64,000 nt of DNA from Alphaproteobacteria bacterium. GTDB lineage: Bacteria; Pseudomonadota; Alphaproteobacteria; SMXP01. Made by a program: the position numbers and the translations under genes. Shown in pieces: positions 1,902-14,980 of this stretch (position 1 is its first letter; each line of letters starts with the position of its first letter). The stretch is from assembly GCA_028285305.1 (NCBI GenBank), contig JANQPV010000020.1, positions 1 to 64,000 of the forward strand, in the 5' to 3' direction. The notes beneath the pieces were generated by a model. The model had not been told where the DNA came from, did not search any database, and saw only the letters and a list, made by a program, of their open reading frames with translations.

Positions 1902-4100
1902 TTACGGAAGAGGGTGTTTTCCGCGCGTCCGACCTTCGCCCGCTCCCCCGGAGGGCGGTACGGGGGCGGCTGGGGGTACAGGCGGCAAAGGGGGCACGAC
2001 AGGGGACACAGGGGCCGCTGGGGTCATCGCCGCCGCATGACCAACAGGTCCCTGCGGTGGCCATTGGCCGGGCGCCATTCCAGTGGTGGGAGGCACGCCT
2101 GGCGGGACTGGAGCCATCGATTGTGGTTGCGGTTGAACCGGCATTTCGGGCTGGGGCGTTGCCGCTGCCGTCATTGCGGCCTGCTGCTGCAGACGCTCCC
2201 ATTCCGCCTGCGCCCTGAGGGAGACTTCGTCGAAGTTGATGCCCGACACGTCCGCCTTCACGCGAAGCTCCGCCAAGCGCATTTCGAACTCGACGAGCTT
2301 CGCTCGGAAGTCCTCCTGTTTTTCGATCATCTCCATCTGATGTTTTTGCATCTCGCTTTGGTTTTTCTGGATTGCGAGTTGCAGTTGGCCGTGCTGTTTC
2401 TGGGTTTCCAGCTGCATCAGCACTTGGGCGGGGTCGGGCTGTTGTGGGGCGCCGTTTTGTGCCGTCCCCTGAATATCATCGATAAGGTTTTCCAACGAGC
2501 GCGCCCCTCGGAAGGGCCGGATTGCCACGCGGGCAAGCTCCAGCAACACTGTCAGATCCAGCTGTCCCGCCGCAACGGCCGGTCCGAGGCCGGTCATGAG
2601 ACCAACAAGCCCTTCGAGGAGCTCTTTCGTTGCCTCTTTCTCTATCTCGGTGTTCACCGCAATCGTCGAATCCGTTTCTACATCGATGCGGAATTCCGCA
2701 TAGCGATCTTTGAGAACGGAAAGCGCTGCGCCGAAACGTTCCGCCGTCATGGGATCATCCAGGCTATAGTTCGCCATTTGAGCTATTAAGTGGGGCTCGA
2801 AGTGTCCGACGATAAGATCGGCCTTAATTTCAATGAGATCGCGAGCATACCGCTCGATGGCGCGGCGTTTTTCGTCCAAACGCAATGTCCCGAATTGCCC
2901 CTTGATCCGTTGGGCCGTCGCCGATTCCACTGGGTCGCTGACACCGCGCAGGAGATCGCCAAGACCGGTAATCTCAAAAATGGTTTGCTTAAGCTGGTCG
3001 CGGTTCACGTAAAGCTGGTTCAAGGCCTCAATGATTTGGCCCAGCGGCATAAAGAGGAGCGCCCCTTCAATGCCGCCCTTGTCCGCGAGGCCGTAATAGT
3101 CTTCGACGGGGATCATTTCCAAATGATGAGCACGGAGTAGACGCTCCACCTCCGGATTTTCCTTCGCATAGAGACCTTTGAGCTTAAGAGCCTTTGTCAG
3201 GGCGCTGATGCGCGAGGTGACGAGATCCATCTCCGCAGCCAGGTCCTGATAGACCTTGTACTCGGGGATGGGGATGAGGCTATCATTAGTGAGATTGCTG
3301 AAGAGGGGCCTGGCAATGGGCCAAAAGCCGGAGAGTTCCAGAACATCGTCCGTTTCGGACATGATTTGGGAGACGGACTCCGAAAACCAAATGATCTTTC
3401 GCCGGCGCTTGTCCCAGATTTCCCAGGCCCGGGTCGTCGCAAATTGGGGATCCGGGTTTAGGTCGGCCGTACCATAGCTGCCTGTCTGAACGTCTTCCGT
3501 GTCAGTGAACGATATGCCCTCTAGTCCCCTCTCGTTGCGCTCGTCAAAGCGCTCCTTACTGAGATCATGCCCGAAGGCAATCCAGCTGACATCGTCCCAA
3601 GATCGAACCGCTTCGTGCAGAAAGTCTTTCCGGTAGATATGCCGGGTCTTGACCTTCTGCTTGACGATCGTCCCGCCCTTTACTTCGGGCTCATAGATGA
3701 TGCGCGTGACGGCGCGCGAAAAGAGATCGTAATCGGCGACAGCCGCCTTCAACGGCGTGCTGAAGTCGTAATCGTCGAGGCAGTAGCTCAGAGCCCGTTC
3801 AAGCACTTCGGCTGCTTCCTTGGCGGCGGGATCCCGGTCCATAAAACGCCGCCTAATGTCTGGTTTCGGCGGATTCTGGTACACAGCAGCACAAGTGAGT
3901 TTATGATTTGTATAAAGAATATTAAACTTTCCGGTGAGCTCATCATCGCTGACGAGCTCCTTCCTGTCGCGGATGATATCCGTGATCCGGTCGCACAAGC
4001 TCCAATAGTCCCTTTGGACTCTTTTTGACTTGTCTATCTCTGTGTGCCAATGGGTGTCCCAATCGCGCACTTTCTTTATTTCAGTTTCGTGTTCTTCCAC
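1902..4100 (-). CDS. phage portal protein (podovirus/P22-like size)
   Basis: This 732-residue protein resembles phage portal (head-tail connector) proteins, the ring at the capsid vertex through which DNA enters and leaves. It has an acidic N-terminal helix, then a wing region that includes KLTCAAVYQNPP and a series of Asp/Arg-rich turns. The stem/clip region carries LYVNRDQLKQTIFEITG followed by a GVSDPVESATAQ loop and long helices, a combination I associate with portals. The C-terminus (from about 560) is a Gln-rich coiled coil passing into a Pro/Gln/Ala-rich tail. The start is GTG at 4100; an in-frame stop 24 bases upstream leaves no ATG option. GGAA lies 7 bases before it. Gene order terL, then accessory genes, then portal, then virion protein fits a packaging and head module. 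The length suits P22-like portals, but the exact family is not settled. Confidence 0.8.
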   Translation of the reverse strand: MEEHETEIKKVRDWDTHWHTEIDKSKRVQRDYWSLCDRITDIIRDRKELVSDDELTGKFNILYTNHKLTCAAVYQNPPKPDIRRRFMDRDPAAKEAAEVLERALSYCLDDYDFSTPLKAAVADYDLFSRAVTRIIYEPEVKGGTIVKQKVKTRHIYRKDFLHEAVRSWDDVSWIAFGHDLSKERFDERNERGLEGISFTDTEDVQTGSYGTADLNPDPQFATTRAWEIWDKRRRKIIWFSESVSQIMSETDDVLELSGFWPIARPLFSNLTNDSLIPIPEYKVYQDLAAEMDLVTSRISALTKALKLKGLYAKENPEVERLLRAHHLEMIPVEDYYGLADKGGIEGALLFMPLGQIIEALNQLYVNRDQLKQTIFEITGLGDLLRGVSDPVESATAQRIKGQFGTLRLDEKRRAIERYARDLIEIKADLIVGHFEPHLIAQMANYSLDDPMTAERFGAALSVLKDRYAEFRIDVETDSTIAVNTEIEKEATKELLEGLVGLMTGLGPAVAAGQLDLTVLLELARVAIRPFRGARSLENLIDDIQGTAQNGAPQQPDPAQVLMQLETQKQHGQLQLAIQKNQSEMQKHQMEMIEKQEDFRAKLVEFEMRLAELRVKADVSGINFDEVSLRAQAEWERLQQQAAMTAAATPQPEMPVQPQPQSMAPVPPGVPPTTGMAPGQWPPQGPVGHAAAMTPAAPVSPVVPPLPPVPPAAPVPPSGGAGEGRTRGKHPLP

Positions 4101-6014: not shown

Positions 6015-7460
6015 CTATAGACGTTCCTGGTTCTTCTTGAGATGAATATTCTCTAAGCGAACCTCTTCGAATGTCGGCTGTTCCGGCTTAAACCCCGTAG
6101 GTGGCTCATGCTCAATCCGTCGCGCACTGATCCTCGACATGACCGCATAGCGCCATTCGTCGGCGATGTGATCTTCCGCCTCGGTATCTAAGTCTTCAGG
6201 CCGCAGGGGGTCGTGTTGGAGGACTGGCAATGTGCGTATAGACTCCCTACACGTGCTGAAGCAGTAGATCATCGGAGTGCCTTCCACACCGCGAAGTCTT
6301 TCCCGCAAGACATCCCACCCGCCCATCGCGCCGTGGCGGCCAGTGCGTTTGTTGTCGGCTCTGCGAAATCGTACGCCGAGACGGGCCATCCTCTCGGCGA
6401 TCGAAGGACCGCCGTCTTCGGCGAAAGCGGCCGGGTCGAGCACGCCCGTGCGTATATCTTCGTCTGGCGGCTCGCGGTCCAGAATGCCTTGAGCAACCTG
6501 CTCAGCCGTCAGCTTGAGGCCGGAGTTTACTCTGTCCGGGTTCGATCCGTACCATTCGCGATAGCGTACTAACGCGCCTTTAGGCAGTGTGCGGCCCCTT
6601 ACTTTGGTTTCATCCGGAACGATCGCCCACCAGCCCACGGAGAAAGGAGACGCGGACCCCCAGTCCATGGAGCGAAAGCGCGTCCAGCTCTCAGGCAATT
6701 CAAACGGATCAATTACATGTTTCGCATACGACCAATTGTCGAAATAAGCTCCTTCGACGGCCGTCCAGTCCCCTTCTAGCCAGGCGCGAACAAGAGCCGC
6801 CGAGCCGACTTTGTACAGGCGGTCCACATAACCCGGGTCTTTCTTTAGTAGCATCCGGTTCTGTTCGATCTTGGACGGAATGTAGATCCGCCGCGCCTGC
6901 CGGCCATGGGGGAGTGTCTCGATGAGAATGCGGTTCCCTTCCGGCCACGGATCATAAAAGCGTTCTTTTAGCCAAAACTGACCGGGACCACCCGGATTGG
7001 CCGTCATAATGAGTTGGCCGGCGGCGGACCCGCGGATCGCGCCCCATAGCCGGTCTAGCGGCGCAGGATCAGGATAATTTCCCGCTTCCTCCACGCCCAC
7101 ATCCGATAAGTTCTGACCTTGATATTTGGCCGCATCATCGAGACTCTCTAAAGGACGAAAGCGCAGACGTGCGCCGCTGGGGAACGTCCATTGAAACCTC
7201 ATCTTGGCGAATATGGCGCCCAGGGGTCGGTAGATCTCATGACTGCGTGCGATTAGATCGTCCGCTTGCGGCATTTCCCGGCGAAAGATGATGGCATTGA
7301 AGGCCTTGCCCAGATGCGCCTGTTTGATCGCAAACTTGCCCAGCAAGCCATCCGACTTGCCGCCTCCCCTTGCGCCTCCGAATAATATCTCCGCTGTCGG
7401 ACACCTTAAAAGCGTCGCCTGGGGGCCGGGCTGGGGCGCCCAGATCGATTTGGATGACAT
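6015..7460 (-). CDS. terL: phage terminase large subunit
   Basis: This 481-residue DNA-packaging motor has an ATPase that pumps DNA into the prohead and a nuclease that cuts the concatemer. The ATPase shows a Walker A (GGARGGGKS, residues 28-36), a Walker B with catalytic Glu (DVGVEEAG, 120-127) and a coupling motif (TANPGG, about 153-158). The RNase H-like nuclease begins near RSMDWG (D266) and has further acidic residues near 345-350 and in the C-terminal third. This order fits the Terminase_6/TerL family and the usual length. It starts at ATG 7460 with only a weak Shine-Dalgarno match. A small-terminase-like gene lies about 5.3 kb upstream on the same strand instead of next door, with metabolic genes between. 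That is unusual and suggests cargo insertion or mosaic rearrangement. Confidence 0.93.
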   Translation of the reverse strand: MSSKSIWAPQPGPQATLLRCPTAEILFGGARGGGKSDGLLGKFAIKQAHLGKAFNAIIFRREMPQADDLIARSHEIYRPLGAIFAKMRFQWTFPSGARLRFRPLESLDDAAKYQGQNLSDVGVEEAGNYPDPAPLDRLWGAIRGSAAGQLIMTANPGGPGQFWLKERFYDPWPEGNRILIETLPHGRQARRIYIPSKIEQNRMLLKKDPGYVDRLYKVGSAALVRAWLEGDWTAVEGAYFDNWSYAKHVIDPFELPESWTRFRSMDWGSASPFSVGWWAIVPDETKVRGRTLPKGALVRYREWYGSNPDRVNSGLKLTAEQVAQGILDREPPDEDIRTGVLDPAAFAEDGGPSIAERMARLGVRFRRADNKRTGRHGAMGGWDVLRERLRGVEGTPMIYCFSTCRESIRTLPVLQHDPLRPEDLDTEAEDHIADEWRYAVMSRISARRIEHEPPTGFKPEQPTFEEVRLENIHLKKNQERL

Positions 7461-7556
7461 AACTCTGTTTCGGTTAGATCGGCTCTACTCTTAGGCAGAT
7501 CAGCATCTGCCCAGCTTGCGCTGGATGCGGCTCGCAATTTTCAAGCGAGCCCCCAT

Positions 7557-8105
7557 ATGCGCTCTATGAACAAGAAACTCATTAAAACAAGCAAATATCT
7601 CAGCTTCGTGCTGCGGCATAATCCCGGCTCCATCGGGCTCCAACTCGATGAGGCCGGTTGGGCCGATGTGGGGGAGCTGATCGAGAAGGCCTCGGTCCCG
7701 CTTAGCCGCGCGCTTATCGAAGAAACCGTTGAAACCAATGACAAGCAGCGCTTTGCGCTTTCGGATGATGGTTCGCGGATCCGCGCCAGCCAGGGGCATT
7801 CGATTGACGTCAATCTGGGTCTGGAACCGGAGGTTCCCCCTGAGATTTTGTACCACGGCACGGCCACCCGGTTCATGCATAGCATTCGAAAGCAAGGCCT
7901 GCTGCCCGGCAATCGTCAGTTCGTTCATCTTTCTGCGGATGAAGAAACGGCCCGCAAAGTCGGCAGCCGCCATGGCGTGCCCGTGATCCTTACCCTTCCC
8001 GCGCTGCAAATGCATGAGGCGGGTCAAGAGTTCTATCTGTCAGATAATCAAGTCTGGCTGACGGATCGAGTGGCGTCAAAGTTCTTGGTCGAATCCAAGG
8101 GCTGA
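7557..8105 (+). CDS. kptA: RNA 2'-phosphotransferase (Tpt1/KptA)
   Basis: This 182-residue enzyme transfers an internal RNA 2'-phosphate to NAD+, giving ADP-ribose 1'',2''-cyclic phosphate. In eukaryotes it finishes tRNA splicing; bacterial roles are less clear and include end ADP-ribosylation. The family signature is intact: SFVLRHNPG with Arg20-His21, IRASQGHSI with Arg76, YHGT at 99-102 and NRQFVHLS with Arg120, which together supply the Arg-His-Arg-Arg quartet. The length is normal for bacterial KptA. A second ATG at 7566 is an alternative start. It is read opposite to terL, whose start is 97 bp away. Being near three prophage tRNA genes makes a role in tRNA repair worth considering, but kptA is also found alone in many chromosomes. 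Confidence 0.93.
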   Translation: MRSMNKKLIKTSKYLSFVLRHNPGSIGLQLDEAGWADVGELIEKASVPLSRALIEETVETNDKQRFALSDDGSRIRASQGHSIDVNLGLEPEVPPEILYHGTATRFMHSIRKQGLLPGNRQFVHLSADEETARKVGSRHGVPVILTLPALQMHEAGQEFYLSDNQVWLTDRVASKFLVESKG

Positions 8106-8209
8106 CGGGGCTCGATTGCCACCGAAATCCCCCCATCGGCTGTAAACCTGTGAATTGACGGTTCGGTTCGCCTCCACTAACTTGCTCTTCCCAACGAAGA
8201 AAGAATAAG

Positions 8210-8241
8210 CCTCCGCGCCCAAAGCGGAGCGGAGGAAACAA
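8210..8241 (+). promoter_or_regulatory. possible RBS-sequestering hairpin before MFS gene
   Basis: CCTCCGC at 8210-8216 can pair with GCGGAGG at 8229-8235, which contains the Shine-Dalgarno GGAGG for ATG 8241. Its last six bases can instead pair with GCGGAG at 8224-8229, leaving the ribosome-binding site free. The two pairings exclude each other. This is read from sequence only; no folding energy was calculated. Confidence 0.4.
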
Positions 8242-9731
8242 TGAACGACGTACCGGGCGATCCTAGCAACTCCGGCGATGCTAAGTCGGCGCAGGCGAAC
8301 GAAACGGGCGATCCGGCGGCCAAACGCGCTGGCCCCACTAAGCCGGAGGCACAAAATACAGCTGCGCCACCTGACGCAACACAATCTGCGGCCGGCGCGG
8401 TCTCCACCCAAAACCAAGGATCAGGTACCGCTGCCGCAACCGCCGCGCCCGGTTCAACGGTCACGTTTACCAAGGGCTACCGGCATTATGTGCTGGGCGT
8501 TCTCCTCGTCGTCTACATCTTTAATTTCATCGACCGACAGATCCTCGCTATCCTTGCTCAGTCCATCAAAGAAGATATGGGGCTATCGGATACGCAAATC
8601 GGCGCGTTGTCCGGCATTGCTTTTGGTATCTTCTATGCGACCCTGGGTATTCCCATCGCACGCCTTGCGGATAAGCACTCACGGGTCAACATCGTTTCCA
8701 TCTGTTTGGCTATTTGGAGCGCCATGACGGCGATTTCCGGTCTGGCCACAAACTATTGGCAACTCCTGCTGGCGCGGATCGGCGTCGGCATCGGGGAAGC
8801 GGGCGGCAGTCCCCCGTCTCACTCTCTGATTGCGGACTATTTCCCGGCGGAGGAGCGTGCCTCCGCGCTCGGGATTTACGCGATGGGCGTCACCATCGGG
8901 ATTTTATTCGGCAATCTCCTTGGCGGTTGGATCAACGAGTTTTTCGGCTGGCGAAACGCGTTCTTCTTAGTGGGCATTCCTGGGATATTGCTCGCGATAG
9001 TTATGAAGATGACCGTTAAGGAGCCGCCGCGCGGCCATTCGGAAGTGACGCAGAAGACAGTCGAGCAAGTTCCGTTTAAGACGGTACTCAGCACCATGTG
9101 GGGCTTTAAGAGCTTTCGGCAATTGTCGCTCGGAGCTGCTACCCAAGCCTTTGTCGGATATGGCGCCATCGCCTGGATGCCTGCTTATTTGATCCGTGTA
9201 CACGACATGTCCTCAGGCATGGTCGGCACGGCGTTGGGCCTCATCATCGGCATCGGCGGAGGTCTCGGTTCCTTTATGGGCGGTTATATGGCTGACCGGT
9301 GGGGCAAACGCGATGTGCGCTGGTATATGTGGCTGCCCGCTTGGGGTTTTCTCATCGCTGTTCCCTTTGTGATCGGCGTATTCATCTTCGAAAGCCTGTG
9401 GCTGGTGCTGGCTCTTTATATCGTGCCGGTGTTCATGACGAATTTGTACACAGGCCCAACGTTCGGCATGACCCAATCCTTAGCGCCGCTTGCGATGCGG
9501 GCGTCTGCCTCCGCACTCTTGCTGTTTATCATCAACATCATCGGGCTGGTCTTTGGTCCGACAACGGTCGGATACTTGAGCGATGTCTTCCAAGGCGCAT
9601 TCGGATGGGAGGACACTGAGTCTCTGCGCTGGGCGCTCATCCTGTGCGGGTTGGTCTATGTAATCTCGTTTTACAACTACATGCAGGCGGCGAAGCATCT
9701 GGAAGGAGACCTGGCGCGGTCGGGGAGCTAG
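8241..9731 (+). CDS. MFS transporter, Spinster-like
   Basis: This 496-residue inner-membrane carrier has about 12 hydrophobic segments from residue 80 onward. The first membrane helix carries NFIDRQILAIL and is followed by GLSDTQIGALSG, FYATLGIPIARLADK and RIGVGIGEAGGSPP; these motifs mark the Spinster-like MFS group often found in proteobacterial catabolic clusters. The first 75 residues form an unusual Ala/Pro/Gln-rich cytoplasmic extension without membrane character. GGAGG sits five bases before the ATG. The protein closely resembles the carrier at 43339-44817 across its length, so the two are paralogues. Substrate is unknown. The amidohydrolase gene that follows converges on it with a 6-bp gap, so the two are not cotranscribed. 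Confidence 0.9.
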   Translation: MNDVPGDPSNSGDAKSAQANETGDPAAKRAGPTKPEAQNTAAPPDATQSAAGAVSTQNQGSGTAAATAAPGSTVTFTKGYRHYVLGVLLVVYIFNFIDRQILAILAQSIKEDMGLSDTQIGALSGIAFGIFYATLGIPIARLADKHSRVNIVSICLAIWSAMTAISGLATNYWQLLLARIGVGIGEAGGSPPSHSLIADYFPAEERASALGIYAMGVTIGILFGNLLGGWINEFFGWRNAFFLVGIPGILLAIVMKMTVKEPPRGHSEVTQKTVEQVPFKTVLSTMWGFKSFRQLSLGAATQAFVGYGAIAWMPAYLIRVHDMSSGMVGTALGLIIGIGGGLGSFMGGYMADRWGKRDVRWYMWLPAWGFLIAVPFVIGVFIFESLWLVLALYIVPVFMTNLYTGPTFGMTQSLAPLAMRASASALLLFIINIIGLVFGPTTVGYLSDVFQGAFGWEDTESLRWALILCGLVYVISFYNYMQAAKHLEGDLARSGS

Positions 9732-9737
9732 GCAGCG

Positions 9738-10544
9738 TTAGAGCGCAAAGATCCGCTTTGCGTTTCCGGCCAAGAACAGCTCTTGCGCCTCGTCGTCCAG
9801 TTCGAGGGCCTCAAGGCCCGCCAGCGCTTGGGCGGGCATGATCATGGGGTAATTGGTGCCAAAGAGGACTTTTCCGCGTCCATGACCGCGCATGAAGTCG
9901 ACAAGGGCAACCGGGTAGCGCTTCACCGTATAGGCCGACGTATCGATATAGACGTTTTCGTGTTTTGTGGCGATGGCGATCGCCTCTTCCGTCCACGGAT
10001 AGCCGATATGCCCACCCACTATGACAAGCTCGGGAAAATCGAGGGAGACTTGATCCAAATAGATCGGCCGGCCCACTTCGGATGGCATCAGCGGACCGGT
10101 ATGTCCGATCTGTGTACAGAACGGAACGCCCATCTCGCAACAGGCCACGTAGACGGGATAGAACCGCCGGTCCGTCGGCGGCACTTCGCAAAGCCAGGGC
10201 AAAACGCGGATTGCCTTGAAGCCTAGTTCTTCTACACAGCGGCGGATTTCGCGCACAGCCACCATCGGCCTGGAGATGTCGACCGACCCAACACCGACAA
10301 GGCGGCCCGGATACGCCGCAACAAAGGACGCTACTTCATCATTGGAGATCATATCCCTGCCTGGCGCTTGCCACGCAGAAATGAGCGCGAGATCTACGCC
10401 GCCGGTGTCCATGGCCGCGATTGTCGCGGCGACCGGCAATTCTTCCATCGGCGTTTCGGTCTTCGTCCACCGCCGCAGGGAGGCGAAGATGGAATCTTGG
10501 CTATGGCGTAAAGTTGGGTGTTGCGCCCATGCGTCGATGATCAT
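9738..10544 (-). CDS. amidohydrolase-2 family protein with altered metal site
   Basis: The 268-residue TIM-barrel protein belongs to the ACMSD-like (amidohydrolase_2) group, which hydrolyses or decarboxylates carboxylates and lactones. The barrel is clear: AAMDTGGVDLALIS, GFKAIRVLPW, CTQIGHTGP, ELVIVGGHIGYPW, NVYIDTSAY and KVLFGTNYP at the usual spacing. Two features are odd. The N-terminal metal motif is DAWAQHP instead of D-x-H-x-H. The usual C-terminal S-D-Y-P Asp is Asn (GTNYP). The central His residues are kept, so the site may hold metal differently or be altered in activity. The start is ATG 10544, preceded by AGAGTGG. It stands alone on the minus strand and converges with the MFS gene. 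Confidence 0.85.
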   Translation of the reverse strand: MIIDAWAQHPTLRHSQDSIFASLRRWTKTETPMEELPVAATIAAMDTGGVDLALISAWQAPGRDMISNDEVASFVAAYPGRLVGVGSVDISRPMVAVREIRRCVEELGFKAIRVLPWLCEVPPTDRRFYPVYVACCEMGVPFCTQIGHTGPLMPSEVGRPIYLDQVSLDFPELVIVGGHIGYPWTEEAIAIATKHENVYIDTSAYTVKRYPVALVDFMRGHGRGKVLFGTNYPMIMPAQALAGLEALELDDEAQELFLAGNAKRIFAL

Positions 10545-10706
10545 AGCGCCACTCTACATTTCATCCGCACTCATTGGAAGATTGAACCCAGATAAGCGGC
10601 GCCAGATTTCCAGTTATCGATGAACTCGGTAAACGAGGCGATATCGAAGATCTATTGGATTGGCAATCTCTTGCCCAACATCCATTCGTTATGGTTTATT
10701 GAACCC

Positions 10707-11198
10707 ATGCGTGTATTCGTCTTCGGCTTGTTGTTGGGTTTGCTTATTGCTGCGAGCGCGCAAGCTTGTGATTGTGTCGTTCCATCTTCGCCGTCAGAAT
10801 TGGTCGAGCGAAGTTCGGTAGTTGGGGACATCACCATTATCGAGGCGTCCATATTGGATGACGCCCAAAAAGACGCCCTTTCTTTGCCACCTCATATGTC
10901 GTTCCTACCCCTGGCTCGAGCAAAGGTTAGGGTGGACTATGCGATCAAGGGAGCTTCCAACGGAGACGAATTTGTCGTGTATTTCGACGTCGGATCGAGT
11001 TGCAAATATGAACCAATGGTTGGCGCCAAGAAGACACTCTTCGTGAGTAATTTCGGGAGCATGCCTTGGGTTAGCGCGTGCAATCAATTGGACTATCTTT
11101 GTGGCGCGCAAGGACTATCTAAGGCTGACTTTTTCGGTTCGTATGACGACTACTTCGATCAAATCTCGCAGGGTGCCTGGTCTTCTCGGCCACGTTAG
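10707..11198 (+). CDS. secreted Cys-rich protein, TIMP/NTR-like
   Basis: The start at ATG 10707 gives a 163-residue protein with a clear signal peptide (MRVFVFGLLLGLLIAASAQA) and a mature N-terminus beginning CDC. The pattern recalls bacterial tissue-inhibitor-of-metalloproteinase-like (NTR/OB-fold) proteins: an N-terminal Cys pair, a strand with AKVRVDYAIKG, a VYFDVGSSC segment and C-terminal Cys residues (VSACNQLDYLC). Six Cys in the mature part suggest disulphides in the periplasm or outside the cell. A longer in-frame start at 10620 would bury the signal peptide and was rejected. It lies directly before the tRNA cluster and has no operon partner. Confidence 0.65.
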   Translation: MRVFVFGLLLGLLIAASAQACDCVVPSSPSELVERSSVVGDITIIEASILDDAQKDALSLPPHMSFLPLARAKVRVDYAIKGASNGDEFVVYFDVGSSCKYEPMVGAKKTLFVSNFGSMPWVSACNQLDYLCGAQGLSKADFFGSYDDYFDQISQGAWSSRPR

Positions 11199-11217
11199 CT
11201 GAGAGGTCAATTGCTAG

Positions 11218-11294
11218 TGGCGGGAGGGACGGGAGTCGAACCCGCAACAACCGCCGTCTCAGGACGATGCGTCTACCAATTGCGCCACGCTCCC
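11218..11294 (-). tRNA. tRNA-Leu(GAG), short variable loop, CCA encoded
   Basis: Read on the minus strand, the gene folds as a cloverleaf. The acceptor GGGAGCG pairs with CCCTCCC except for a C:C clash at pair 6. The D arm is leucine-like (AATTGGTAGACGC). The anticodon stem TCGTC/GGCGG holds the loop CTGAGAC, giving anticodon GAG. The variable region is only TTGTT. The T arm is GCGGG/CCCGT with loop TTCGACT. The discriminator is G and CCA is encoded (11218-11220). Bacterial tRNA-Leu normally has a long variable arm and discriminator A73. The mismatch and G73 mean it could be poorly charged or a pseudo-tRNA. Confidence 0.8.
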
Positions 11295-11315
11295 CTGATG
11301 GATCGAAAAGCGGGA

Positions 11316-11392
11316 TGGTGGGAGCGGCGAGAGTCGAACTCGCACTGATCGCGGTCTGAGCACGATGCCTCTACCGATTGGGCTACGCTCCC
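11316..11392 (-). tRNA. tRNA-Leu(CAG), short variable loop, CCA encoded
   Basis: The minus-strand gene has a perfect seven-pair acceptor (GGGAGCG/CGCTCCC), D arm GCCC-loop-AGGC, anticodon stem TCGTG/CGCGA with loop CTCAGAC (anticodon CAG), variable loop TCAGT, and T arm GCGAG/CTCGC with loop TTCGACT. The discriminator is A and CCA follows. It lies 21 bp upstream of the GAG gene in transcription order. The five-base variable loop makes it class I in shape although the anticodon reads CUG leucine codons. Confidence 0.88.
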
Positions 11393-11402
11393 GGACGAGC
11401 GT

Positions 11403-11475
11403 GCGGGCTGCGGGAGTCGAACCCGCACTGTCTGAATTTTAAGTCCAGTGCCTCTACCGCTTGGGCTAAGCCCGC
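11403..11475 (-). tRNA. tRNA-Leu(UAA), short variable loop
   Basis: This is the first gene of the minus-strand tRNA cluster. The acceptor GCGGGCT/AGCCCGC is perfect. The anticodon stem CTGGA/TTCAG holds the loop CTTAAAA (anticodon TAA). The variable loop is ACAGT. The T arm GCGGG/CCCGC has loop TTCGACT. The discriminator base at 11402 is A and no CCA is encoded. The body resembles leucine tRNAs with short variable loops carried by some phages (from memory). It lies ten bases before the CAG gene, so the three are probably one transcript. Confidence 0.88.
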
Positions 11476-11764
11476 AAGCGTCGAGGTTTCAGATTTTCAG
11501 GGAGTGAGAATCGCGAAACCGCCCGCTTACGAAAGCAGGTCAGCCAAGCCCGATAGTCGCGTTGATATGTTCCACGTGTTTCTCATGGGCCGATAAATAG
11601 GGTTGCCATGCCAGAACGTCAAGATACAAACTCCTGGCAATGATTTCGCTTGTTTATTCATCATGGGGCGCTTACTAGACCGGAGTCATGAAATCAGTTT
11701 TCGAAATGTAGTGGTTATCCTAAGTATGGACGCAGACATACCACTCCAATCTTACGATGCCTTC

Positions 11765-12613
11765 TCAGCGCCCAATGAACAATCGATTTAAGCGTCCCAG
11801 CAAGTTGGAAGCGCTCGTCCGCCTTCCTTTGTACTTCGCGAATTGCTCTTCATACCAAGCGTCTTGCTGGGGCCGCTTCGTGTAGTAGTCACCACGTCCA
11901 AACAAGTCGGGCGGCTTGTTTGCGCCCAAGTAACTGACCATGTAGTCGAGGCCGCGAGATCGGCCACACTCCTGTTTGAATGCGTCGGCAAGCTCCGGAG
12001 ACGACCGACACGTATCCAGAAGTTTCTCGATCGTAGCGAATCGTTCGAGTTCATCATCGAGCCAATAGTGGTATTCGTCACGGAGCGTTGTTCCCTGAAG
12101 ATCTTGGCAGAGATTATCGATTGATTTAAAAACAAGTGCGCCAGGGCGCTCGCCAGAGGTGACAACGCAGAAATCGAAGCCGCACCCGTACTCGATCACT
12201 GATGCCAGTCCCGTCAGTGTATTGTCCGGCACGCACCAGTTTTTGTCGCTGTCATAGAAATAGTAGTCGTCATCATCGATATCATCGTCGTTTTCATCCA
12301 ACACCGCGGCTCTTTTCTTCGCCAAGTCGCGTAGGGCTTCCGCGCCAGGGTAAGGTTCTGCCGGGCGATAGAGTTTAAGACGGCTAAGAGACTTCATGCC
12401 GTAATGCGGACCGATCCCGCCATTGCCGCACTCCCGATAGAACGCCGCCAATTCATCTGGCATTGCAACGCCGACCTCAGTCTCCCAAGCCTCGATACCT
12501 TCCGGTGAGACCTTTGGACCAAATGCGTATACGCCATCGCTCGCGCCAAACACTTGGCGCGTTTTGTCCAGTTTTTCGAGTCTTCGCAGCTTGTCCCGTA
12601 CCTGTTCCCACAC
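11765..12613 (-). CDS. SMI1/KNR4 (SUKH) family immunity-type protein
   Basis: This 282-residue protein fits the SUKH superfamily, whose bacterial members often neutralise polymorphic or contact-dependent toxins in the cytoplasm. The signature region is near residues 35-75: GIEAWETEVGVAMPDELAAFYREC followed by NGGIGPHYG and a leucine-rich segment (the first run is conserved in parts only). A later CGFDFCVVTSGERPGALV block is typical of the second half. An acidic loop (residues about 108-118) is rich in Asp. An upstream in-frame TAA without any ATG fixes the start at GTG 12613. In this prophage it is probably cargo. No cognate toxin is recognisable next to it. Confidence 0.8.
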   Translation of the reverse strand: MWEQVRDKLRRLEKLDKTRQVFGASDGVYAFGPKVSPEGIEAWETEVGVAMPDELAAFYRECGNGGIGPHYGMKSLSRLKLYRPAEPYPGAEALRDLAKKRAAVLDENDDDIDDDDYYFYDSDKNWCVPDNTLTGLASVIEYGCGFDFCVVTSGERPGALVFKSIDNLCQDLQGTTLRDEYHYWLDDELERFATIEKLLDTCRSSPELADAFKQECGRSRGLDYMVSYLGANKPPDLFGRGDYYTKRPQQDAWYEEQFAKYKGRRTSASNLLGRLNRLFIGR

Positions 12614-12723
12614 GGCGCCACCAGTTTCATTCGGTGTTGTCTTTTAGGAAGATAAGACAGTTTCGCCTGCATTCCAGCTTTAATTTGATCGTCGCTCATA
12701 GGTGGTGAAGAGGGTTCGTCGGC

Positions 12724-13170
12724 CTATCCGCGTTTCTGCGGCAATTCCAATGGCTCTTCGTCCAATGTCGCCTCGAATTCCTCCTCAGTAAGGGGCTGAT
12801 CGGAAATGTGATAAAGGATGTTCGAAGTCTCCATCACGTGGCGGTCGCCGTATACCTCCGGTCGCCGGGCTTTGAGGAGAAAGACCAACATACGCTCACT
12901 GATGGTTTCAGCGAGTTCGTAAGCACGATCTTCTAGGCGATCGGTCCCCTTCTCAAAGGCCTCTTGCCAGTTTTCGCGGAAGCGCTCCTCTTTCTCCCTC
13001 CAACGGTAAACGGTGCTGCGCACCAAATGTGCTTCCTCACAGGCTCTTGTGACGGAGGCGCCAAAGGCTAAGGCCTCCAAAAACTGAGCGCGCTTTTGCG
13101 CTTTGGTTTGGGGGAAGTCATTCTTCTCAAGATTGCCCTCATTCATTTCTTGTTGCGCTGACTGATTCAC
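12724..13170 (-). CDS. phage terminase small-subunit-like DNA-binding protein
   Basis: The GTG at 13170 has GAGGAA six bases upstream, much better than the ATG at 13146 or longer frames, giving 148 residues. After an acidic, Gln-rich start comes an HTH: ALAFGASVTRACEEA, then VRSTVYRWREKEERF. A helical oligomerisation segment and LLKARRPEVYGDR follow; that ending is common in small terminases of the homeodomain-like type. Such proteins bind pac or cos DNA and recruit TerL. The gene lies downstream of the NusG-like gene on the same strand and about 5.3 kb from terL. A transposase-like HTH is the main alternative, but the C-terminal motif favours TerS. Confidence 0.7.
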   Translation of the reverse strand: MNQSAQQEMNEGNLEKNDFPQTKAQKRAQFLEALAFGASVTRACEEAHLVRSTVYRWREKEERFRENWQEAFEKGTDRLEDRAYELAETISERMLVFLLKARRPEVYGDRHVMETSNILYHISDQPLTEEEFEATLDEEPLELPQKRG

Positions 13171-13332
13171 TCGCGTTCCTCTATATTGGAAACTTGGATG
13201 ATGGTGGGTTCCCATAGCTCCGCCATCGGAGCGCCTTCGCACTCTAGGTGCATTGGTCTCCCGGATTGGCCCCGGCGGAGGAAGCGTGGGTTCCCCGCGA
13301 ACTGAACAGGCCGAAACTAGAGGCAATCCCGG

Positions 13333-13863
13333 CTACGCGCCGAGGGGTTGCTCTATCTTGAATTTCTTGCCGGCGACGTCGCCCTCGGCAATGAGTTTTC
13401 GTGCTCCCACGGACCGGACAACGGCATCGACCGTGTGACCGAAGACCTGAACAGAGACTTTGTCACCGATGAAAACGATCTGCCCGGCACGTTTCTTTTT
13501 TCGGTCCGACATCCATCTTTCTTCTAGCGCCTTGATACGTGTGATTGCTTGATCAGGGATAATTGCCGGTTTTTCATTGATCAGTACAGGGCGAGACTTT
13601 GGGCGCGCCGTCATTCGCATTTGGCGCAATCCGTCTGCCGTCTTTAGCCAGAGCAGTTCAGCAAGTCCACCTTGGGGCCGCGCAAACAAATAGGTCGGGA
13701 ACGCTGGGAATTCTTTGTAGATTCTCTTTTTTGTTCGATGATGGCGTTTGCGTACTCGCATGACGGGACAATAGGCATCGACTTCGGCGGATTGGAGCAA
13801 TTGGGTTTCGTTCACTTCCGTGCCGAAGGGCGTCCAGAGCACCAGCCAGGCTTCACTGCTCAT
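13333..13863 (-). CDS. NusG/RfaH-like transcription elongation factor, prophage-encoded
   Basis: This 176-residue protein has an NGN domain and a KOW-type C-terminus. The NGN part shows AWLVLWTPFGTE, then EVDAYCPV, a basic stretch ending FPAFPTYLFAR, and a hydrophobic segment (residues about 68-75). These match the W-v-l-t / P-r-r / FPgYlF pattern of NusG, RfaH and LoaP, which bind RNA polymerase and suppress pausing. A Lys/Arg-rich linker precedes VFIGDKVSVQVFGHTVDAVV, a degenerate KOW strand set. It lies 33 bp behind the Cro-like gene and ahead of the terminase-like gene, where many phages keep an antiterminator. I infer a processive antitermination role for prophage genes. An ops-like element was not found by eye. 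Confidence 0.8.
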   Translation of the reverse strand: MSSEAWLVLWTPFGTEVNETQLLQSAEVDAYCPVMRVRKRHHRTKKRIYKEFPAFPTYLFARPQGGLAELLWLKTADGLRQMRMTARPKSRPVLINEKPAIIPDQAITRIKALEERWMSDRKKKRAGQIVFIGDKVSVQVFGHTVDAVVRSVGARKLIAEGDVAGKKFKIEQPLGA

Positions 13864-14196: not shown

Positions 14197-14271
14197 GGAA
14201 ATTTCCCCAATATCAAGATTTTTCCTACTTGCAATTCCTATCATTTTGTAGGATTTTCCCAATATGGAAAA
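14197..14271. promoter_or_regulatory. divergent cI/cro operator-promoter region
   Basis: The region holds repeated TTTCC/GGAAA half-sites: a perfect palindrome GGAAATTTCC at 14197-14206, TTTTTCC near 14219-14225, and TTTTCC (14254-14259) facing GGAAAA (14266-14271) across the CI start codon. TTCC(C)CAATAT occurs twice. TCCTAC (14223-14228) and GTAGGA (14248-14253) form a second inverted repeat; the latter may also act as the CI ribosome-binding site. CI binding at the last site could repress its own translation or transcription. Confidence 0.6.
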
Positions 14272-14980
14272 CCTTGACGAAGACGAACAACATGCCCGGC
14301 TGGTCTATCATCTCGACCGCCTGATGACTGCCGGTCGCTGGACGCGGGCCGCGCTTGCGAAGGAAGCCGGCCTCAGCCATACCGCCGTACGGGATATCTT
14401 CTTGGGAAAATCCAAGAGTCCCCGCGGAATAACTCTCGCCCGAATTGCAAGTGTCTTGAATGTTGACGCAAGCGATTTCTATCTTCCTACAGATCAACAA
14501 GGGACCAATGCTTTTACCGCTCCGACGCCGCCCTCGGATGTGGACTTGAGACACATGCAATCCGCTCCTAAGGCCACCGTCTCCCCAGAAACCGCACCAG
14601 TTTATTCGTCCGCGCAAGGCGGCCAAGGCGACCTAACGATTTACTTCACCGATATCATCGAGTATCGGGCCAAGCCGCCGCGTCACCGGCGTTCCCCCAA
14701 ATTGTGGGGGTTTTATGTGGTTGGGGATTCGATGTTCCCGCGCATTGAAAGCGGCAACTTCGTCTGGGTCGATCCGGACAAGACGCCCAAGCCCAACGAA
14801 GAAGCCGTCTTTGTACAGACTAATAAAGCACTTCAAGATGCGAGCATCTTGGTCAAGAGAGTGGTCAAAAGCACCGCCAAAATGTGGACGGTGATGCAGT
14901 TCAACCCGCAGGAAGAATTTCGCCTGTCTAAAGAGACTTGGGAGGCTTGGCTGATTGTGGACATCGATCTCAATAGATAG
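14264..14980 (+). CDS. CI-type phage repressor (HTH plus S24 peptidase)
   Basis: This 238-residue repressor maintains lysogeny. An N-terminal XRE HTH (ALAKEAGLSHTAVRDIF, residues about 30-46, then TLARIASVLNVD) binds operators. A Pro/Thr-rich linker of about 60 residues leads to a LexA/S24 domain with GDSMFPRIESGNFVW. Ser156 and Lys198 (ILVKRVV) are in the positions of the catalytic dyad, so RecA-triggered self-cleavage and SOS induction are plausible. No perfect Ala-Gly or Cys-Gly cleavage pair is obvious in the linker. The length is normal for this class. The coding region overlaps an operator-like palindrome at its start and, at its end, the tail of the decayed GNAT gene on the other strand. 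Confidence 0.92.
   Translation: MENLDEDEQHARLVYHLDRLMTAGRWTRAALAKEAGLSHTAVRDIFLGKSKSPRGITLARIASVLNVDASDFYLPTDQQGTNAFTAPTPPSDVDLRHMQSAPKATVSPETAPVYSSAQGGQGDLTIYFTDIIEYRAKPPRHRRSPKLWGFYVVGDSMFPRIESGNFVWVDPDKTPKPNEEAVFVQTNKALQDASILVKRVVKSTAKMWTVMQFNPQEEFRLSKETWEAWLIVDIDLNR

Follow-up and report, generated by a model that had tools for sequence, protein, structure and literature searches.

The window, by which we mean the whole 64-kb stretch of DNA analysed, raises a question about three adjacent tRNA genes. They carry leucine anticodons in a prophage-like region, and the class II long variable (V) arm is absent from all three. Are they leucine tRNAs, could the host charge them, and what might the phage gain from them? 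ARAGORN found exactly three tRNAs in the window, all on the minus strand and all called Leu.

11401-11475, minus strand: short-V tRNALeu(UAA), A9-type core, A73, no encoded CCA
11316-11392, minus strand: short-V tRNALeu(CAG), A9-type core, A73, encoded CCA
11218-11294, minus strand: short-V tRNA with anticodon GAG, G9-type core, G73, C6:C67 mismatch, encoded CCA

Each gene also matched Rfam RF00005 above the cut-off of 29 bits (GAG 47.4, CAG 56.3, UAA 60.9). The gaps between the genes were 21 and 8 nt. The V loops (TTGTT, TCAGT and ACAGT) had 5 nt in each tRNA, and the anticodons all contained A35. The original prediction, namely three tRNAs on the minus strand that carry the anticodons GAG, CAG and UAA and have five-base V loops in place of the class II arm, was thus confirmed. 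The G73 and the acceptor C:C clash that it assigned to one tRNA both lie in the GAG gene, and the proposed coverage of all leucine codons except CUA follows from the three anticodons. The single shared transcript found no such support, as no sigma-70-like promoter or terminator was seen at 10900-12000 around the trio. On folding, the CAG tRNA gave a cloverleaf (z -2.0), and the best fold of the UAA tRNA kept the acceptor, D and T stems (z -2.2). These two tRNAs look functional, as far as can be predicted from sequence. Separately, the antisense of the UAA tRNA (11401-11475, plus strand) matched the Rfam Plastid-ycf2 5'UTR model with 48 bits, against a cut-off of 65.7. Part of what this family models may be an antisense tRNA.

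The prophage-like location, also part of the original prediction, was borne out by the genes around the trio, namely those for the portal, the large (TerL) and small (TerS) terminase subunits, a NusG-like antiterminator and a CI-like repressor.

1902-4100, minus strand: portal protein (phrog_12082, 6e-139)
6015-7460, minus strand: large terminase subunit, downstream edge of the cargo insert (phrog_2, 1.5e-32)
8241-9731, plus strand: MFS transporter, cargo insert (PF07690, 6.3e-55)
9738-10544, minus strand: amidohydrolase, cargo insert (PF04909, 1.3e-36)
11765-12613, minus strand: SMI1/KNR4 (SUKH-1) family protein, cargo insert (PF09346, 4.1e-06)
12724-13326, minus strand: small terminase subunit, upstream edge of the cargo insert (PF20901, 4.6e-10; phrog_4044, 2.6e-15)
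13333-13863, minus strand: NusG-like phage antiterminator (phrog_6386, 1e-14)
14264-14980, plus strand: CI-like repressor with an S24 peptidase domain (phrog_4, 1.1e-21)

The trio shares a 5.3-kb insert (7461-12723) between TerS and TerL with the transporter, the amidohydrolase and the SUKH-family gene. In Pseudanabaena phage Pam5 the two terminase genes are direct neighbours, and in locus L255 they lie near each other, whereas here they stand 5.3 kb apart. Relatives of the large terminase with 60% identity occur in viral contigs. Host-like metabolic genes start near 16.5 kb in the window. At the other end the prophage is cut by the window start, because the window begins at base 1 of the contig. 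Identical tRNAGly(GCC) genes lie only a few bases from the start of contigs G000:C47 (at 4-75) and G000:C28 (at 25-96), loci L019 and L018, a sign that repeats may have caused the contig breaks at these genes.

No conservation of the trio in related prophages was seen: the 96 loci that contain a related TerL were all without a tRNALeu. The trio was therefore probably acquired locally by this prophage. No second copy was found in the host genome. Phage and plasmid records yielded one partial phage tRNALeu match as the only comparable hit to the trio, and plasmids gave none.

Individual tRNAs of this kind proved frequent in phages. We defined phage short-V tRNALeu by a leucine anticodon, a V loop of at most 7 nt and location in phage DNA, and the trio has all three. 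A first phage sample was drawn with a pattern for tRNAs of class I length with a CUN-reading anticodon, which matched at least 120 viral contigs. The V loop was at most 7 nt in 170 of 189 distinct tRNALeu of these loci, a proportion that holds for a sample selected by the pattern and for the matches listed. A second sample was drawn by a tRNAMet pattern, that is, regardless of leucine. Here short V loops were found in 21/72 tRNALeu, 0/44 tRNASer and 1/27 tRNATyr (Fisher p 2e-6), and 14 of the 36 leucine-bearing loci had a short tRNALeu. The short form is common in phages, at about 3 in 10 of the phage tRNALeu sampled, and it is widespread among unrelated phages. The named phages that carry it infect E. 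coli, Salmonella, Pseudomonas, Stenotrophomonas, Mycobacterium, Microbacterium and Streptomyces. In the following examples the genes are annotated as tRNA-Leu.

T5-like phage T5_ev212: UAA
Microbacterium phage Pumpernickel: CAG, CAA and GAG
Pseudomonas phage ZC03: UAA
Streptomyces phage Dennebes: UAG
Stenotrophomonas phage DLP_6: GAG and CAG

The tRNAs of the named phages resemble the window trio in their short V loop and leucine anticodon, and were about 75-83% identical to the window tRNAs over the matched parts. However, they sit in mixed tRNA arrays, whereas the window holds a leucine-only trio. One short-V tRNALeu(UAA) (L381:2484-2560) is highly conserved among T5-like phages that infect E. 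coli and Salmonella; 324 records, among them the BASEL phage IrisVonRoten (MZ501075), carry it with at least 95% identity. The two tRNA regions examined in the T5 record AY543070 contained only the class II tRNAL1 and no short-V tRNALeu.

Cellular genomes gave a different picture. The short CUN-reading pattern, in its form with a GGTAGA D-loop and an NAG anticodon, gave no hit when 520 other genomes from the phylum of the host were searched. Its class II counterpart matched 39 of 41 genomes, together with all three expected host genes; the blank for the short form therefore did not arise from the D-loop sequence. Within the genomes searched, which cover one phylum and the GGTAGA/NAG form, the short form is restricted to phages.

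The leucine anticodons might nevertheless be misleading. In one alternative, the three would have begun as class I tRNAs of a different isotype, gained their leucine anticodons later and now receive an amino acid that is not leucine. The GAG tRNA offers some ground for this: besides carrying G73, it agrees with host tRNAAsp at 26 of its final 28 nt (11218-11245), a stretch that includes G73, and the next best host tRNA agrees at 22. We compared the three with isotype profiles that were derived from phage tRNAs and had the anticodon masked. The short-V Leu profile was best for every one, with 37.2 bits for GAG, 40.8 for CAG and 44.4 for UAA (runners-up 30.9, 18.5 and 27.0), in agreement with the leucine identity originally assigned. 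Held-out phage short-V Leu were called correctly in 20 of 21 cases. Over all isotypes the profiles were correct for 547 of 772, being weak for some others such as Val. When the V region was excised, each of the three window tRNAs scored higher on class II Leu than on any other remaining profile, as did 119 of 189 short-V Leu. The remaining 70 scored best on a non-Leu profile, so the origin from tRNALeu is either not uniform or not always traceable.

The core nucleotides also argued against charging with another amino acid. A14 and A15-U48 were present in all three window tRNAs, and leucine-type features at 15-48 and 13-22 were likewise found in all three. The discriminator was A73 in the UAA and CAG tRNAs and G73 in the GAG tRNA; every leucine identity element checked was thus present in two of the three. 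Among phage class II tRNALeu, 97% carried A15-U48. The short-V tRNALeu of phages retain A14, A15-U48 and A73 as leucine identity elements. Those whose anticodon is YAA, and which therefore lie outside the selection by the first (CUN) pattern, had A15-U48 in 48/52 and A73 in 52/52. The counts for other short-V tRNAs of the same loci were 287/998 and 559/998. Phage short-V Leu of the A9 type have a characteristic core of A9, C12-G23 and C13·A22, the latter two features each in 95%. This differs both from the class II tRNALeu core (G9, G12-C23) and from the ordinary class I core, which is mostly A9, U12-A23 and C13-G22. The UAA and CAG tRNAs of the window matched the A9-type core exactly, while the GAG tRNA had the second kind, G9 and G12-C23 with A22. 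Taken with the profiles, these features made a class I tRNA in disguise very improbable.

We therefore favour, at roughly 80% probability, the reading that the trio consists of phage short-V tRNALeu, a type made up mostly of class II derivatives that lost the arm, with the UAA and CAG tRNAs charged by the host LeuRS and the GAG tRNA charged poorly. What is known of E. coli LeuRS is consistent with such a loss. The enzyme requires A73, A15-U48, G18G19 and A20a, and tRNALeu variants without the V arm are still active (PMC9976931). G73 is an antideterminant for LeuRS, and in tRNASer the size of the arm is the major identity element (PMC9976931). The leucine tRNAs of phages can lose the arm and their serine tRNAs cannot, because LeuRS, unlike SerRS, does without it. 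The frequent lack of the long arm in phage tRNALeu, and not in phage tRNASer, fits these differing needs. Leucine acceptance would be kept after the loss, as bacterial LeuRS reads A73, A14, A15-U48 and the corner of the D- and T-loops rather than the V arm. The host genome contained one full-length match to the bacterial LeuRS family; the remaining family matches, considered as a second LeuRS, were partial and weak and were rejected. Given the known LeuRS requirements, it is most likely that the host LeuRS charges the window tRNAs. This single enzyme would serve the UAA and CAG tRNAs, the former then reading UUA and UUG and the latter CUG.

The GAG tRNA departs from this in several ways. Its best structure was not a cloverleaf (z +0.5), and G73 occurred in none of 191 phage short-V tRNALeu among the matches listed. 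It was 79% identical to the CAG tRNA. It also contained the D-loop motif AAUUGGUAGAC of host tRNALeu. The gene is most likely a decaying or converted copy. It probably diverged from the CAG gene, and G73 and the broken C6:C67 acceptor pair probably impair it, so that charging would be poor.

Why the phage should carry such tRNAs is a further question. The charging, expression and origin of the trio, like its benefit to the phage, are inferred. Translation supply, one of the roles in the original prediction, would require that leucine codons be used more by the prophage genes than by the host. The trio anticodons do cover about 91% of the prophage leucine codons. However, prophage and host genes in the window use the leucine codons in similar proportions (prophage/host: CTC 0.28/0.24, CTG 0.20/0.22, TTA 0.06/0.05), and the host already has a full set of five tRNALeu, all class II and all intact. 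A role in codon supply is thus unlikely.

The same host genes bear on whether the trio replaces a host tRNALeu broken by integration. Such tRNA-dependent lysogeny is known in actinobacteriophages, including a tRNA-Leu-CAA in Gaia, and it resembles the present case in that a temperate phage carries the tRNA gene (PMC10865867). In those phages integration destroys the host gene (PMC10865867), whereas here all five host tRNALeu remain intact and ARAGORN placed none of them inside the window. Of the explanations considered, this is the least probable, and we give it hardly any weight.

The short V loop might instead serve evasion, letting the tRNAs escape nucleases or toxins that recognise class II tRNALeu partly via the V arm. 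Phage tRNAs for Lys, Thr and Asn resist the tRNA-targeting defence PARIS (PMC12409363), and phage tRNAs are reported to evade a retron (PMC11555353). A leucine-only set is also rare, occurring once among some 50 small phage tRNA clusters, which points the same way. On the other side, the anticodon-nuclease family PF13166 had no match in the host genome, a result that also bears on the original idea that the trio may replace host tRNALeu cut during infection, and no tRNALeu-specific defence was identified here. The lack of short tRNASer does not call for evasion, as it is explained by the need of SerRS for the arm. Neutral loss would suffice, given that the arm is dispensable for E. coli LeuRS. 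We regard evasion as doubtful, though somewhat more credible than codon supply. Its stronger form would have armless tRNALeu evolve repeatedly as a selected escape from defence with LeuRS charging kept, the trio being a dedicated anti-defence cassette at a prophage cargo site; we think this improbable, to about the same degree as codon supply.

The contrast between phage tRNALeu and phage tRNASer is a natural experiment on the dispensable parts of a class II tRNA. E. coli K-12 could be used for tests, since T5-like phages with short-V tRNALeu grow there. We found no literature survey of phage short-V tRNALeu; one may exist, as subscription journals were little covered. The general short-V form is a little-described tRNALeu variant, to which the window trio is newly added. 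A 2023 review gives tRNALeu a long arm everywhere except in animal mitochondria (PMC9976931). Animal mitochondrial tRNALeu is leucylated without the long arm, with A73 and A14 as the main determinants (PMC9976931); unlike the trio, it is organellar and charged by a mitochondrial LeuRS. Within the literature covered, a single paper reports such a tRNA, a short-V tRNALeu(TAG) in a phage-like tRNA cluster of the Mycobacterium mucogenicum clade (Behra et al. 2019, PMC6582537). This tRNA, like the trio, was acquired horizontally, has a short V loop and stands alongside a normal host isoacceptor. It differs from the trio in being a single case within a cluster of 11-14 tRNAs in an actinobacterium.
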